Assembly: GCA_012520205.1 (NCBI GenBank)
Contig: JAAYOT010000228.1
Span: 1 to 33,300, forward strand
DNA from: Clostridiales bacterium
Lineage (GTDB): Bacteria; Bacillota; Clostridia; Clostridiales; Clostridiaceae
DNA length: 33,300 bases
Direction of reading: 5' to 3'
Shown here: piece by piece, positions 4,793-29,156 of the stretch
Numbering within the stretch: position 1 is the first letter of the stretch
Layout of the letters: each line of letters begins with the position of its first letter
Notes under the pieces: model-generated
Database searches by the model: none
What the model saw: only the letters and a program-made list of their open reading frames with translations
Told to the model about the DNA's origin: nothing
Position numbers and translations under genes: made by a program

Positions 4793-4868
4793 GGCCAATT
4801 TACAATTAGCAATTAACAATTAAGGAAAATTGCTAACTTTGTTGAAAAGTTAATAATATGAATGGAAA

Positions 4869-15750: not shown

Positions 15751-16004
15751 TTCGCCAAGTTTTATTTGCCACGTATACTATCAATTCAATTAACAATTGA
15801 GGATGAAACTACCGTGTAATTTCTGAAATATAGATTTTCCATAACTATGCATTGTGCATTGTACATTAAAAAATAATTAATAACTCTTTTTATTAAAAAA
15901 ATGTTCCCTAAATAACACCTTTTAGAATATCTATATAATAAACAATAAAAAAGGGGGGAACTGCTTCTTAATAATTGCTTAGGCAAATTATAAAGTGGGA
16001 ATTT

Positions 16005-18314
16005 ATGAAAAAAGAGTTGAAGATAAATGATGTTAAATATAATTTTGATTTTAGCGGTGATGACAAAAATAACCCTACAAGTATTAATATATTTGAGTCT
16101 GAATTTAAAAAGATCGGAAGGGCTCTTAATATTGATAAGGAAGGGTATAACCTTTATTTAATAGATACCTTTTCAAAGGATAAGATAATTGAATTAAAGA
16201 AATATATAGAGGAGCAGTACAAATATCTAGAACCTCCAAAGGATATTTGTTACGTTATATATGAAGATTCAAAAAAACCAGAAGCTCTATTTGTTAACAA
16301 TGGTAATGGAAGAAAATTAAAAAAAGCTGTTGAAGAAATAAAAAATCGCTATTTAGAAATAGTAGAAGATTTTTATAATTCATCATCAGATAATAGAAAA
16401 GAAGATTTAATAGATGAAATTCAAAATAAGCGAAGTAATTATATAAATGAATTAATAGAAAGTGCCAGAGTAGAAAACTTTGAAGTTAAAGTAACTAATA
16501 AGGGATTTGCATTTATTCCTCTTGTAGATGGGAAAATAATTACAGAAAAGCAGTATGATGATTTAAGCAATTTAAGAAAAGAAGAAATAGTAGTAAAAGC
16601 TAATAAACTAAAGAAAAAAGCAGAACACATATTGGCAAAGCTTAAAGAAATTGAATCTATATCTATGAAAAAGTTAAGGGAGCTATATACAGATTTCCTA
16701 ACCAATCAAATGGAAGTTTATAAAGATGAAGCACTATTGGAATTTATTGATGATGATAATGCTTATGAATTTTTAGAAAGACTTTTTTTAGTTATAGAAA
16801 GGAAAATTATTGACTGTTATAATATTGATGTAGATGAGGATGAAGAGGAGCTATATAAGATAATTCATAAAAATAATATTCATCTGCTTGTTGATAACAG
16901 TTTGGTATTAAATCCACCTGTAATATATGAGGAGGATCCAAGTGTAAATAATCTTATAGGGTTTATTGAATATGAAAACAATAATGGAGTATATTCAACA
17001 GATATTTCACTGATAAATTCAGGAAGTATTTTAAGGGCAAATAATGGATGTTTAATTATTAGTATGAATTCCTTAGCTAGTAATTTTAATGCATATCTCC
17101 AGCTTAAAAAAGTATTATTAACTAATAAAGTAAATTTCGATGTTTCAAAATCCTATATAGAATTGATTTCTATAAATGGTTTGAAGCCGGAACCTATTCC
17201 AATAAAATTAAAAGTTATATTAATAGGAAACCAAGAATCTTATGATATTTTATATAACTTAGACGAGGATTTTAGAAGATTATTTCCTCTTAGGGCTGAA
17301 TTTAAGTCTGTAATTGAATTAAATAATGAATCAAAAAAATATGCCATAGCCTTAGCAAACAAAGTTGTTAAGGAAAATTCCTTAAATATACTTTCAATGG
17401 AGGCTTTAAATGAAATAATAAAGTATCTATCTAGGAGGGCAAATGATAGAAGTAGGATAAGCATTGAAGAAAGAGAAATAGAAAAATTAATTTTACTAGC
17501 TAATGATAGAGCAAAAAATAGGAAAGCATCAATGATTGAGAGAGAAGATATTATAGAAATTGCCTATGAAAGGGAAGTAATAGAGGAGGAATATGATAAA
17601 TTATATAAAGAAAATAAAATATTAATTACTGTAAACAAAGAGAAAGTAGGAGTAATTAATGGACTTGCTGTAATAGATACTGGATATTATTCCTTTGGAA
17701 AGCCAATGAGGATAACCTGTGTTGCCCAAAGTGGTAATGGAAGAATAATTGATATTCAAAAGGAAAATAAGCTAAGTGGTAAAATACATGAAAAATCAAT
17801 TAGTATATTAAAGGGACTTTTAAATAATTTAATTAGTCCCTATGAAGAATTACCAGTAGATTTTTATTTAAGTTTTGAACAAACTTATGGATTAATAGAT
17901 GGGGATAGTGCATCTATTGCAGAAGTTATTTGTATATTATCAGCCTTAAGTAAAAGGCCTATAAAGCAAAATATAGCAGTTACAGGTTCAGTAAATCAAC
18001 TGGGGGAAGTTCAACCTATTGGAGGAGTAAATGAAAAAATAGAAGGATTCTTTAGACTGTGTAAATTCATAGATAGAGTTAAAGATAAAGGTGTCTTAAT
18101 ACCAGGCTTCAATAAGAAGGATTTAGTGTTAGCCCCTGAAGTTGAAAAAGCAGTAGAAGAGGGAGAATTTCATATTTATATAATGGATACCCTAGAGGAT
18201 GCAATAGAAACATTAATTCTTCATGAGGGAGAAACCTTGGAAGAGTTCTTTGAAGATATTAAATTAGAGATTGATAGGTATAAGAAAGGAAGGGAGGAAG
18301 GGTCTAATAATTAA
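16005..18314 (+). CDS. Lon-like (S16) serine protease with degenerate AAA+ ATPase region (LonC/COG1067-like)
   Basis: Likely start ATG 16005. Protease domain has Ser in DGDSAS and Lys in GGVNEKIEG; AAA+ remnants GSILRANNGCLIISMNSL and LIGNQESYDILYNLDEDFRRLFPLRAEF; no Walker A. Confidence 0.87.
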   Translation: MKKELKINDVKYNFDFSGDDKNNPTSINIFESEFKKIGRALNIDKEGYNLYLIDTFSKDKIIELKKYIEEQYKYLEPPKDICYVIYEDSKKPEALFVNNGNGRKLKKAVEEIKNRYLEIVEDFYNSSSDNRKEDLIDEIQNKRSNYINELIESARVENFEVKVTNKGFAFIPLVDGKIITEKQYDDLSNLRKEEIVVKANKLKKKAEHILAKLKEIESISMKKLRELYTDFLTNQMEVYKDEALLEFIDDDNAYEFLERLFLVIERKIIDCYNIDVDEDEEELYKIIHKNNIHLLVDNSLVLNPPVIYEEDPSVNNLIGFIEYENNNGVYSTDISLINSGSILRANNGCLIISMNSLASNFNAYLQLKKVLLTNKVNFDVSKSYIELISINGLKPEPIPIKLKVILIGNQESYDILYNLDEDFRRLFPLRAEFKSVIELNNESKKYAIALANKVVKENSLNILSMEALNEIIKYLSRRANDRSRISIEEREIEKLILLANDRAKNRKASMIEREDIIEIAYEREVIEEEYDKLYKENKILITVNKEKVGVINGLAVIDTGYYSFGKPMRITCVAQSGNGRIIDIQKENKLSGKIHEKSISILKGLLNNLISPYEELPVDFYLSFEQTYGLIDGDSASIAEVICILSALSKRPIKQNIAVTGSVNQLGEVQPIGGVNEKIEGFFRLCKFIDRVKDKGVLIPGFNKKDLVLAPEVEKAVEEGEFHIYIMDTLEDAIETLILHEGETLEEFFEDIKLEIDRYKKGREEGSNN

Positions 18315-18378
18315 TAATTAGCAATTAAGGATTAAAAAGTGTAGAAGCTTGTCAAGCAATCTTTTAAGTCCACAGTTC

Positions 18379-18412
18379 ACAGTGCACAGTTTCATCCTTA
18401 ACTGTGCACTGT
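18379..18412. repeat. Perfect 13-bp stem hairpin within a dispersed intergenic repeat region
   Basis: acagtgcacagtt-tcatcctt-aactgtgcactgt. Confidence 0.85.
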
Positions 18413-18501
18413 AAATTTTGTCCTATGAATTGATAAATTAGCCTTCATTCAATAATGTGCATTGAAAAATGTATAAATTACATAAAAATGGAATAAAGTA
18501 T

Positions 18502-18599: not shown

Positions 18600-18935
18600 A
18601 TGTATCTTAAGTTCGATAAAAATGAAGACAAATTAATTGTTACGTTGATGGGAGAGCTTGATCATCATAGTGCTGAAGAAGTACGAGTGAAGATAGATGA
18701 TAGAATAGATAGAGATAACATAAAGAAAGTTATATTAAATTTTAAGGGTGTAACCTTTATGGATAGTTCAGGAATTGGTGTAGTTATAGGAAGGTATAAG
18801 AAAATGCAAAATAGAGATGGTAAGCTTTGTGTTGCAGAAATAAATAAGAGTGTTGGCAAGGTTTTTGAAATATCAGGCATATATAAAATAATTAATATCC
18901 ATAATAGCTTAGATGAAGCAGTTGAGAGTATTTAG
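18600..18935 (+). CDS. spoIIAA: Anti-sigma F factor antagonist SpoIIAA
   Basis: 111 aa STAS protein; phosphoacceptor motif FMDSSGIGVVIGRYK; first of spoIIAA-spoIIAB-sigF. Confidence 0.95.
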   Translation: MYLKFDKNEDKLIVTLMGELDHHSAEEVRVKIDDRIDRDNIKKVILNFKGVTFMDSSGIGVVIGRYKKMQNRDGKLCVAEINKSVGKVFEISGIYKIINIHNSLDEAVESI

Positions 18936-18950
18936 TGGAGGGGTTTAAAT

Positions 18951-19382
18951 ATGGTAGATAATAAGGTTTGTATAGAATTAATGAGCAAATCCCAAAATGA
19001 GGGCTTTGCAAGGGTTGCAATTGCAGCATTTGTATCCCAGCTAGACCCTACAATTGAGGAATTATCTGATGTAAAAACAGCGGTATCTGAAGCTGTAACA
19101 AATTCTATAATTCATGGTTATGAAAATAGAAAAGAGGACATAATTAGAATAGAGGCTACTATAAGCGGCAATGAAGTAACTATAACAGTTGAAGATTTTG
19201 GAGTTGGAATAGAGGATGTAAAACGAGCTATGGAACCATTATATACATCTAAACCAGAGTTAGAAAGATCAGGTATGGGCTTCACTGTTATGGAAACATT
19301 TATGGACAGCTTAGAAGTAGTAAGTAAAGAAGGTAAAGGTACTAAAGTTGTAATGAAGAAGAAATTCAACTCAGTAAGTTAG
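18951..19382 (+). CDS. spoIIAB: Anti-sigma F factor SpoIIAB
   Basis: 143 aa GHKL kinase; [33 protein letters not shown]. Confidence 0.95.
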
Positions 19383-19391
19383 GTGAAGTAT

Positions 19392-20147
19392 ATGGAAAAT
19401 GGTATGATGAGGAAAGAGGCGTATAATTATGATGATAATTCAAAATTAATACCCTTAGCTAAATCAGGCGATCAAGAAGCAATGAACAAAGTAATAGAAA
19501 TGAATCTTCCTCTTGTAGCATCAATAACTAAAAAGTTCCTTAATAGAGGATATGAATATGACGATATCTTTCAAATAGGCTCTATAGGCTTAATTAAGGC
19601 TATAAATAACTTTGATGGAAGATTTAATGTAAAATTTTCTACTTATGCTGTGCCAATGATAGTTGGTGAAATAAAAAGATTCCTTAGAGATGATGGAATA
19701 ATCAAAGTGAGCAGAAATGTTAAAACCTTAGCTAGAAAGCTTCACTTTGATAGGGAAAAGTTAACTAAAAAATTGAATAGGGAACCTACAATTGAGGAAC
19801 TATCAGAGGAATCTAAAGTAGATAAAGAAGAAATATTATTTGCCCTAGAATCTGCTAATAGTATGCAATATTTATATGATACTATTCATCAAGATGATGG
19901 TGCACCAGTTCTTCTTATTGATAAGTTAAGTGAAAAAGGTGAAGATGACAGTGAAATGATAAATAGAATTGCCTTAAAGGAAGCATTAAGAAGCTTAGAT
20001 GAGAAATCAAGGCAAATAATAATGCTTAGATATTTTAAAGATAAAACTCAGGTTCAGGTTGCTAAAATGTTAGGAATAAGCCAGGTACAGGTTTCAAGAA
20101 TTGAGAAAAAGGTTTTAGGAATCATGAAAGAAAAATTAGAAGAATAA
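19392..20147 (+). CDS. sigF: RNA polymerase sporulation sigma factor SigF
   Basis: Sigma-70 regions: YDDIFQIGSIGLIKAINNFD, KFSTYAVPMIVGEIKRFLRDDG, VAKMLGISQVQVSRIEKKVL; ATG 19392 follows aggtgaa RBS. Confidence 0.95.
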   Translation: MENGMMRKEAYNYDDNSKLIPLAKSGDQEAMNKVIEMNLPLVASITKKFLNRGYEYDDIFQIGSIGLIKAINNFDGRFNVKFSTYAVPMIVGEIKRFLRDDGIIKVSRNVKTLARKLHFDREKLTKKLNREPTIEELSEESKVDKEEILFALESANSMQYLYDTIHQDDGAPVLLIDKLSEKGEDDSEMINRIALKEALRSLDEKSRQIIMLRYFKDKTQVQVAKMLGISQVQVSRIEKKVLGIMKEKLEE

Positions 20148-20328: not shown

Positions 20329-20799
20329 ATGCCTAAAAAGAAAAATATGAATGAAAGTGAAATTATGAAGGAATTTCAAACTATTACAAAAGAAACAGAA
20401 CCAAAACCTAAAATTTTAAAAAATTGTATTAATGCTTTTTGGATAGGAGGATTAATATGTGTAATTGGTCAAATAATAAATATGCTTCTTCTTAAATATG
20501 GTGGTTTTGATGAAGAAACAACAAAGATGTTAGTACCAGCAATTATGGTTTTTATAGGTGCTTTTTTAACTGGAATAGGTGTATATGACAGAATAGCAAC
20601 TTATGCAGGGGCAGGAACCCTAGTTCCAATTACAGGATTTTCAAATTCAGTTGTTTCTCCTGCTATGGAATTTAAAAAAGAAGGCTTTATATTTGGAGTT
20701 GCAGCAAAAATGTTCATCATAGCAGGACCAGTTTTAGTTTATGGAATAGGGAGCTCAGTTCTTGTGGGCATAATATATTATTTGATACAAAGATTTTAA
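20329..20799 (+). CDS. spoVAC: Stage V sporulation protein AC
   Basis: 156 aa; FWIGGLICVIGQ, GIGVYDRIATYAGAGTLVPITGFSNSVVSPAMEFKKEG. Confidence 0.95.
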   Translation: MPKKKNMNESEIMKEFQTITKETEPKPKILKNCINAFWIGGLICVIGQIINMLLLKYGGFDEETTKMLVPAIMVFIGAFLTGIGVYDRIATYAGAGTLVPITGFSNSVVSPAMEFKKEGFIFGVAAKMFIIAGPVLVYGIGSSVLVGIIYYLIQRF

Positions 20800-20814
20800 G
20801 AAAGGGGATTAGAT

Positions 20815-21852
20815 ATGGATAATGCAAAAAAAAGAGTAGGAATTCAAACTGTAAAAATGAAAAATCCTCCTAAAATAATTTCTACTTATTCTATAGTAGG
20901 TCCCAAAGAAGGAGAAGGGCCTCTTGGTCAATATTTTCATGAGGTGGTAACAGACGATACTTTAGGTAAGGACAGCTATGAAAAGGCTGAAAGCGAATTA
21001 TTTTATCAAACAGTATCTAAGGCTATAGAAAATGCAAATTTAAAAGAGGAAGATATTAATTATATTTTTGCGGGAGATTTATTAAACCAGTTAACTTCTA
21101 CTTGTTTTGCTGCAAGAGATATAAATATACCTTTCTTTGGTTTATTTGGAGCATGCTCAACAATGACAGAGTCTTTGAGTTTAGCTTCAATGTTAATAGA
21201 TGGAGATTTTGCAGATTATACGGTAGCAGCAACAGTATCTCATTTTAGTTCTTCAGAAAGACAATTTAGATTTCCGCTAGAATATGGTTCTGTAAGATAT
21301 CCTACATCCCAGTGGACAGTAACAGGATCAGGAGCCATGGTTTTAGGGAAGGAAGGTAACTTCCCTGAGGTAACTTATGTAACTACAGGATTAGTAAAAG
21401 ATTATGGAATTAAGGATTCAAATAATATGGGAGCAGCAATGGCGCCAGCTGCTGTGGATACGATTGTAAAGCATCTTCAAGATACAGGAAGGGGAGAAAA
21501 ATATTATGACGCTATTGTAACAGGAGACTTAGGAAGAGTAGGAAAGGAAATAACCTTACAATTACTAGAGAAGCAAGGTTATAATATTAGAGATATTTAT
21601 TATGATTGCGGAGATTTAATATTTGATGATGAGAAACAAGGTACAAATTCAGGCGGTAGTGGATGTGGATGTTCAGCCAGTGTAGCTTGTTCATATTTCT
21701 ATGGAAAATTAATAAATAAAGAGATAAATAAGTTACTTCTTGTTTCAACAGGAGCATTAATGAGCCCAACCTCTACTCAACAGGGAGAAAGTATTCCAGG
21801 AATTGCCCATGCTGTAGCAATTGAGTTTAATAATAATGGAGGTGAAAAATAA
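20815..21852 (+). CDS. spoVAD: Stage V sporulation protein AD
   Basis: 345 aa thiolase-like fold protein; FGLFGACSTMTESLSLASMLIDG, GGSGCGCSASV. Confidence 0.96.
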   Translation: MDNAKKRVGIQTVKMKNPPKIISTYSIVGPKEGEGPLGQYFHEVVTDDTLGKDSYEKAESELFYQTVSKAIENANLKEEDINYIFAGDLLNQLTSTCFAARDINIPFFGLFGACSTMTESLSLASMLIDGDFADYTVAATVSHFSSSERQFRFPLEYGSVRYPTSQWTVTGSGAMVLGKEGNFPEVTYVTTGLVKDYGIKDSNNMGAAMAPAAVDTIVKHLQDTGRGEKYYDAIVTGDLGRVGKEITLQLLEKQGYNIRDIYYDCGDLIFDDEKQGTNSGGSGCGCSASVACSYFYGKLINKEINKLLLVSTGALMSPTSTQQGESIPGIAHAVAIEFNNNGGEK

Positions 21853-22208
21853 TGGAGTATTTAAGTGCCTTTATAGTGGGAGGTTTAATATGTGTAGTTG
21901 GGCAAATTATCTTAGATACTACAAAACTTACTCCAGCTAATATATTAGTTACTTTTTTACTTATAGGAGTTGCATTAGGTGCCTTTGGATTATATGATAA
22001 ATTAATAGAAATAGGCGGTGCTGGTGCATCAGTTCCTTTGCCTAGTTTTGGTAACTCCTTAGCTAAAGGGGTTATGAAAGCAGTAGATGAGAAAGGAATT
22101 GTAGGAATATTAACTGGCGGAATAGAAGGAACTGCATCAGGGGTAACTGCAGCAGTATTTTTTGGTTATTTAGCAGCAGTATTATTTAATCCAAAGACAA
22201 AAGCTTGA
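21852..22208 (+). CDS. spoVAE: Stage V sporulation protein AE (SpoVAEb)
   Basis: 118 aa; FIVGGLICVVGQIILDTTKLTPANILV; start overlaps spoVAD stop (TAATG). Confidence 0.95.
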   Translation: MEYLSAFIVGGLICVVGQIILDTTKLTPANILVTFLLIGVALGAFGLYDKLIEIGGAGASVPLPSFGNSLAKGVMKAVDEKGIVGILTGGIEGTASGVTAAVFFGYLAAVLFNPKTKA

Positions 22209-28121: not shown

Positions 28122-28181
28122 GTATTAAATTATTATATTGTGGGAAAATAAGAAATGATAATGAATTGTGGAGGTATTTCA

Positions 28182-29156
28182 ATGATTAGCATAAGAACTG
28201 ATTTAGCAATAGAAGCTCGTGATATGTACACGCAGGAAAATAAAAGAGAGTTAGATGGAGTCATAGTAAAAGAAGAACAAGATGAAGATGTAAAAATAAC
28301 CACTGTAACCATTGAAAGTGATGAGGCTGGAAAGGAACTAGGAAAATCCAAAGGAAATTATATTACAATAGATTTTCCAGAAATGACTTATTATGAAACG
28401 GAAATTATGGATAAAGTTTCCCATGCCTTAAAAAAATCCTTAAGTGATCTTATAGATGCACCTCATGATAAGCTTGCTTTAGTAGTTGGATTGGGAAATA
28501 GAAGGGTAACTCCAGATTCACTAGGACCTAAGGTTACAGAAAAAATCATGGTTACTAGACATATAAAGCAGTTAATGCCAGAAGCAATTGATGAATCAGT
28601 TAGGCCTGTTTCTTGTATTGCACCTGGAGTACTAGGAGTTACAGGTATAGAAACTGGTGAAATAGTAAAATCTCTTGCTGAGAAATTGAAACCTGATATA
28701 GTTATTTGTATTGATGCTTTAGGGTCAAGAAAACTTGAAAGAGTAAATAGAACTATACAAATAAGTGATACTGGAATAGCACCTGGGGCAGGGGTTGGGA
28801 ACAATAGAATGAAAATTAACGAAGATTTTATAGGAGCAAAAGTAATTGGTATAGGAGTTCCTACCGTTGTTCATGCGGCAACAATAGCAAACGATGCCCT
28901 GGATTTATTATTAGATGAGCTAATAAAAAAATCAGAAGAAGGAACAGACTTTTATAAAATGTTAAATTCCCTAGATAGAAATGAAAAAAATAATTTAATA
29001 AGAGAGATATTAGACCCATCCATTGGAGATTTAATGGTTACCCCAAAGGATGTAGATATTATAATGGATTCCTTATCAAAGGTTATAGCAAATGGAATTA
29101 ATATGGCAATTCAGCCTAATTTAGATATGGAAGATATAAATGCATTTATGAGTTAA
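28182..29156 (+). CDS. gpr: Germination protease (GPR)
   Basis: ATG 28182 (MISIRTDLAIEARDMY); VVGLGNRRVTPDSLGPKV, CIDALGSRKLERVNRTIQISDTGI; tggagg RBS. Confidence 0.95.
   Translation: MISIRTDLAIEARDMYTQENKRELDGVIVKEEQDEDVKITTVTIESDEAGKELGKSKGNYITIDFPEMTYYETEIMDKVSHALKKSLSDLIDAPHDKLALVVGLGNRRVTPDSLGPKVTEKIMVTRHIKQLMPEAIDESVRPVSCIAPGVLGVTGIETGEIVKSLAEKLKPDIVICIDALGSRKLERVNRTIQISDTGIAPGAGVGNNRMKINEDFIGAKVIGIGVPTVVHAATIANDALDLLLDELIKKSEEGTDFYKMLNSLDRNEKNNLIREILDPSIGDLMVTPKDVDIIMDSLSKVIANGINMAIQPNLDMEDINAFMS

Follow-up and report, generated by a model that had tools for sequence, protein, structure and literature searches.

Lon proteases that work independently of ATP have been characterized mainly from Thermus and Meiothermus. 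The LonA, LonBA, and spore LonB/LonC proteins (TIGR02902/TIGR02903) of Firmicutes contain the S16 protease domain and have intact AAA+ sites. MtaLonC/TTC1975 (LonC, MEROPS S16.007; PDB 4fwd) is a soluble protein without a transmembrane insert and combines an AAA_32-type degenerate ATPase module with a Ser/Lys Lon protease domain. It is hexameric, lacks ATPase activity, and needs no ATP to degrade unfolded proteins; the hexamer binds six ATP-gamma-S without hydrolyzing them, and the Walker-B Glu is missing (PMC3391209). MtaLonC keeps a Walker-A-like GPPSLGK and the Walker-B Asp.

Escherichia coli YcbZ (b0955; L120:2540-4300) also contains AAA_32 and Lon_C domains but no P-loop, and its Walker B region reads GGILIISL, without acids. 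It is nonetheless annotated as a putative ATP-dependent protease. With respect to translation, phage T4 genes 25 and 38 contain RNA structure between the Shine-Dalgarno (SD) sequence and the AUG that brings the effective spacing down into a usable range, and destabilizing this structure lowers translation initiation (PMC3014915).

A LonC-type protease and its former nucleotide site

The window is the whole stretch of DNA analyzed here, 33,300 nucleotides from a Clostridiales bacterium; features of its protease locus are collected in Table 1. The protease gene begins with ATG and encodes 769 residues (P0001), and its translation agrees, residue for residue and in its coordinates, with the segments quoted in a preliminary description of this DNA. 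That description had reported a Lon-family protease with an intact Ser/Lys dyad. Both residues lie within the Lon_C domain (PF05362), as in Lon family S16, and both are present in all 71 full-length ortholog copies.

Table 1. Features of the protease locus, in positions of the window.
Feature	Position	Strand	Basis
CDS of the P-loop-less LonC-type protease P0001	16005..18314	+	AAA_32, Lon_C, and MtaLonC matches
AAA_32 (LonB-like AAA) domain, residues 304-433	16914..17303	+	PF13654, 5e-39
Lon_C protease domain, residues 544-738	17634..18218	+	PF05362, 1e-12
Catalytic Ser635 (in DGDSAS)	17907..17909	+	kept in 71/71 orthologs
Catalytic Lys678 (in GGVNEKIEG)	18036..18038	+	kept in 71/71 orthologs
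Former P-loop, now motif D54-T-F-S-K-D-K60 (family consensus D-x-[FY]-S-K-[DE]-K)	16164..16184	+	ortholog counts
Walker-B Asp position, residue 353	17061..17063	+	Arg in 63/72 orthologs; Ser in P0001
Position aligned near sensor-1, residue 409	17229..17231	+	Asp in 65/72 orthologs; Asn in P0001
Conserved promoter-like element GTTCCCTAAA-N12-GAATATCTATATAATA	15903..15940	+	upstream conservation in the family
Strong Shine-Dalgarno AAGGGGGG, 47 nt from the ATG	15951..15958	+	
Hairpin in the leader, separating SD from ATG (outer stem: CTGCTT 15961-15966 paired to AAGTGG 15993-15998)	15961..15998	+	
spoIIAA (18600-18935), spoIIAB (18951-19382), sigF (19383-20147)	18600..20147	+	neighbors outside the protease system
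Inverted repeat between protease gene and spoIIAA (21-nt arms, terminator-like, weak T tail)	18371..18420	+	

Several features point to a LonC-type protein. The segment DGDSAS fits the LonB-like active-site consensus [D/E]GDSA found in LonC, the LonA N-domain is absent from the Pfam scan, and no membrane segment or insert is apparent in the sequence as judged by eye. The non-functional AAA+ motifs characteristic of LonC are seen here as the absence of both the P-loop and the Walker-B acid. By inspection of the MtaLonC alignment, VEKAV at residues 713-717 matches the helix-5 insertion pattern of LonC (phi-X2-A-phi), and CKFIDRVKDKG aligns in place with the first LonC insertion but does not agree with its published consensus at every residue. 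The LonC_helical model (PF20437) scores 16.4 bits on P0001, against a Pfam cut-off of 24 bits. The best match to a solved structure is MtaLonC (4e-66), over residues 293-759, and the N-terminal 290 residues align weakly.

The signature of ATP-dependent LonA, LonB, and LonBA proteins (GxxxxGK[ST] plus hhhhDE) is absent from P0001, which lies far below the cut-offs of the NCBIfam models of LonA, LonB, and the spore Lon proteins; LonA, LonBA, and spore LonB/LonC are encoded by separate genes in the window's genome. That genome (G000) contains a single AAA_32 protein, P0001, and five other Lon_C-domain matches. The models that do recognize these proteins take their names from ATP-dependent or LonB-like proteases, so automatic naming would mislead. 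Named relatives found in a search of genome contigs with P0001 are limited to Caproiciproducens sp. MSJ-32 (87%) and Clostridium gallinarum (64%); going by the closest named relatives, the family is Clostridiaceae. An AlphaFold2 model with two loci as input had a mean pLDDT of 41.8 and was set aside.

The P-loop is missing, as the preliminary description had proposed. Residues 46-61 (16140-16187) read EGYNLYLIDTFSKDKI where relatives have the P-loop, and GxxxxGK[ST] occurs nowhere in P0001. The stretch aligns without gaps onto the P-loop of relatives (for example, GYNIYVSGNNGCGKRS in L033 versus GYNLYLIDTFSKDKII). Across orthologs gathered from the window's genus and family, G....G[KR] occurs at this site in 0/72, compared with 42/43 P-loop-type relatives (other families or paralogs) from the same order and phylum. 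The sequence that replaces it is itself conserved among the 72 orthologs: D54 in 65, Phe or Tyr at 56 in 66, S57 in 63, K58 in 48, Asp or Glu at 59 in 56, and K60 in 58, with Lys or Arg at position 60, that of the Walker Lys, in 65. The contrast between the two groups far exceeds chance, and the P-loop-less protease is a real feature.

Two other positions of the site are changed in most orthologs (Table 1), and we infer from the alignment that the second, residue 409, corresponds to sensor-1. R353 and D409 covary (Fisher p 0.0036, uncorrected for relatedness). P0001 has changed both, to S353 and N409; relatives 87% identical to it retain R353 and D409.

Two readings of this region in the preliminary description stand in part. 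The Walker-B strand GCLIISMNSL (residues 348-357, 17046-17075) indeed lacks the acidic pair, but this trait is common to the AAA_32/LonC group: the Walker-B Asp occurs in only 11 of the 43 P-loop relatives and the catalytic Glu in none. Since most P-loop relatives also lack the acid, its absence is not diagnostic. Likewise, RRLFPLRAEF (residues 424-433) is a conserved segment, but its arginine-finger character did not hold up. Arg430 is Lys in 33 of the 43 P-loop relatives, and the segment is therefore a conserved structural one rather than an intact Arg finger.

P0001 resembles MtaLonC in domain composition, solubility, LonC-type protease-domain features, and the absence of a transmembrane insert. 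Unlike MtaLonC, which binds nucleotide, the P0001 family has lost the P-loop glycines and has Asp/Arg/Asp at the site in most orthologs. P-loop-bearing LonC-like proteins of other families in the order (L033 and L036, for example) match P0001 in domain order and length and share the deoC-LON-ychF-mraZ context, but keep GxxGxGK[KRT] and, in some, the Walker-B Asp; L033 also passes the LonC_helical model (7e-14). YcbZ differs in being shorter (586 residues) and distant and in lacking the DxFSK[DE]K motif.

Origin of the P-loop loss and gene context

An IQ-TREE phylogeny built from 87 proteins unites the P-loop-less group as a single clade (SH-aLRT 100), whose long stem (0.87) arises within P-loop-bearing members of the same order (supports 97 and 99). 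This tree, which supersedes a rooted FastTree with a deeper placement of the group, shows a single loss of the P-loop, on the long stem branch and before the sampled genera split. AU tests rejected neither a direct orthology with the gene of the order-mates nor an older paralogy (p 0.51 and 0.68), and both placements put the loss inside the order. Synteny favors direct orthology, because P-loop-bearing order-mates and most genera of the family have the same context: deoC precedes the gene and ychF-mraZ-mraW-ftsL follows it, names that we take from our own reading of the cluster sequences. In one genus (g43; three genomes, L078-L080), the P-loop is absent and an acid is still present at Walker B; thus, the P-loop may have disappeared first.

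P-loop loss is not confined to this family. YcbZ belongs to another lineage, so its loss was probably independent. The P-loop has also disappeared from L118, a distant AAA_32 Lon protein within the phylum (GYNIFCVGDEDTNMEDEI). Based on these two proteins, the P-loop was probably lost several times among AAA_32 Lon proteins.

The group is under purifying selection, with dN/dS of about 0.08 overall; the protease domain has a value of 0.05, and the former ATPase part ranges over about 0.07-0.11. These values argue against decay, and the combination of new motifs with low dN/dS indicates that selection preserves the former ATPase domain for a function other than ATP turnover.

Two genera (L084, about 4800-4850; L152, about 2127) have a frame break at a nearly identical place, around residue 538-540, between the lid and the protease domain. 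Each lies at or near an A-run and could represent an error, slippage, or a real gene split. In the spoIIAA-positive genome G166, the first ~99 residues of the copy (L153) are in another frame than the rest.

The window's genus and roughly ten more have a spoIIA-sigF-spoVA block after the protease gene, in place of ychF-mraZ. Adjacency to spoIIA is therefore a derived rearrangement in one sub-lineage, and deoC and ychF-mraZ-mraW are the ancestral neighbors. Within the window, spoVAC/spoVAD/spoVAE (20329-22208) come straight after sigF, and a germination protease gene (Peptidase_A25, gpr) is found further downstream (28155-29156).

Proposed mode of action and its alternatives

P0001 is probably a LonC-type, self-compartmentalizing Ser/Lys protease that acts independently of ATP and whose AAA+-like module serves as a passive gate or scaffold. 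The protein is best read as an ATP-independent Lon-like protease, since its nearest solved relative, MtaLonC, acts without ATP. By analogy with that protein, six subunits most likely enclose a chamber. The AAA+-like module would neither bind nor hydrolyze ATP; as a scaffold and a passive gate at the entrance, it would let only unstructured or unfolded polypeptides diffuse into the chamber, to be cut there, probably without energy. In this family the nucleotide pocket was rebuilt once, with the P-loop giving way to DxFSK[DE]K, the Walker-B Asp to Arg, and sensor-1 to Asp; these residues perhaps make up a network of charges that keeps the ring assembled in the absence of nucleotide. One family of mostly spore-formers has abolished the P-loop once and conserved the result, a natural test of a nucleotide-free AAA+ ring.

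The preliminary description had offered partner dependence beside ATP independence. For partner dependence to hold, another AAA+ unfoldase or a P-loop-bearing paralog would have to power a mixed ring. P-loop-bearing AAA_32 paralogs are present in several genera of the family, but most genera have the P-loop-less copy only, P0001 is the lone AAA_32 protein of the window's genome, and gene neighborhoods contain no conserved unfoldase, making such an arrangement very unlikely. Where they occur, these paralogs (L089-L096) are at unrelated sites and lack the conserved promoter-like element. A somewhat better case, but still an unlikely one, can be made for a pocket that acts as an allosteric switch, binding a nucleotide (but not hydrolyzing it) or some other anionic ligand. 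MtaLonC binds nucleotide without hydrolyzing it (PMC3391209), and the position of the Walker Lys is still Lys or Arg in most orthologs; however, MtaLonC itself retains GPPSLGK, whereas in the P0001 family hardly any ortholog retains a P-loop glycine, and in 65/72 the first of these glycines has become Asp, an exchange that would repel phosphate. That the protein is a decaying Lon relic with a drifting ATPase part is scarcely credible. The long branch leading to the group and frame-disrupted copies in G071, G078, and G166 could be read in this way, but dN/dS is low over all domains, the new motifs have become fixed, and the two catalytic residues never vary.

A further alternative holds that the protease is dedicated to sporulation, acting for example on SpoIIAB/SigF or other forespore proteins, and we regard it as possible, if rather doubtful. 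The preliminary description had drawn a sporulation role from the position of the gene beside spoIIA, and the gene does adjoin spoIIA-sigF-spoVA in 11 genera. Because this arrangement is derived from a deoC/ychF-mraZ context, adjacency alone says little about function, and in the window spoIIAA is set apart from the protease gene by 286 nt that include a terminator-like hairpin and a promoter-like site. The protease gene also has its own promoter-like element. Co-occurrence is better evidence than adjacency, and a weaker link to sporulation remains: the gene is present in 173 of the 186 family genomes with spoIIAA versus 1 of the 10 without (196 genomes; Fisher p 5e-9, uncorrected for relatedness), although the genomes without spoIIAA come from no more than about 3-4 independent lineages. 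The single genome with the gene and without spoIIAA is an 81%-complete draft. Thirteen genomes with spoIIAA, several of them at least 94% complete, lack the gene, which is therefore not required for sporulation. Our literature search found nothing on clostridial LonC in sporulation.

Leader hairpin and upstream promoter-like element

The strong SD sequence of the protease gene lies far from its ATG, with a predicted hairpin between the two (Table 1). By hand count, 40 ortholog leaders have an SD-ATG distance of 28-72 nt and a predicted helix between in each, whereas in the other 31 the SD is 3-12 nt from the ATG, with no helix and nothing between. Removal of the helix leaves an effective spacing of 8-16 nt in all but two of the 40 (3 nt in L058 and 20 nt in L025). 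These leaders thus have the arrangement of a split SD, in which an RNA helix between the SD and the AUG gives a usable spacing.

Folding of one or a few representatives per lineage gave a mean z-score of -3.1 and a combined p of about 3e-20 against dinucleotide shuffles, a value that overstates independence, as the lineages are related. The acceptance rule of this test, that the helix enclose the insert and leave an effective spacing of up to 14 nt, was set after the pattern had been seen. Across 19 aligned leaders, the outer stem is 99.1% paired, and all pairs together are 96% paired, falling to 36-65% when slid. One stem pair is changed on both sides (UA to CG), and stem sequences are wholly different between lineages (for example, L054, L070, L084, and L085). 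The hairpin of the window is modest by itself (z about -2 for the insert and -0.8 with flanks), so the case for it rests on comparison.

In the window's lineage, translation probably starts from an SD that the hairpin brings near the ATG, as the comparison of leaders and the function of the phage T4 structures suggest. The likeness to T4 genes 25 and 38 lies in the shortened effective spacing; here, unlike in the phage, the gene is chromosomal and the predicted hairpin persists in many genera while its stem sequences change. The leader hairpin looks like a split ribosome-binding site on a chromosome, broadly supported by comparison, and it may be more novel than the P-loop loss. A limited literature search found no report of it, and Rfam has no match in the window.

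Two other accounts of the distant SD were considered. A leader peptide was rejected, since the leaders share the helix and not a start codon. An in-frame TTG at 15975 is not favored as the true start; it lies 16 nt from the SD, and the extension is unconserved in most relatives.

Ahead of the gene in most of the family is a fixed-spacing element, GTNCCTAAA-N12-GAATATTAATATA[AG]TA, and a related -10-like element, GAATATT(A)TATA, precedes the P-loop-bearing gene in order-mates. At two or fewer mismatches in 14 genomes, the element has a single match in the window's genome, at the protease gene. Six of the nine same-genus genomes searched contain it once each, upstream of the protease gene in every case, and one further, chance-like match occurs in an order-mate genome. 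No regulon was identified for the element among the 14 genomes, and a strict promoter pattern gave almost no matches.

Taken with the pocket, these upstream features allow a more specific reading, which we put forward tentatively as less likely than its opposite. The pocket may be a nucleotide-free charged staple (D54-R353-D409) that keeps a passive protease permanently assembled, expressed from a gene-specific promoter element; in the spoIIA-adjacent lineage, the hairpin-bridged ribosome-binding site may act as a translational switch, such as a heat- or stage-dependent off-switch upon hairpin melting.

Short repeats of the TGTGCA type at 18371-18420 and at about 15850-15868 of the window (ACAGTGCACAGTT...AACTGTGCACTGT; CATTGTGCATTGTACATT) resemble a dispersed intergenic repeat.
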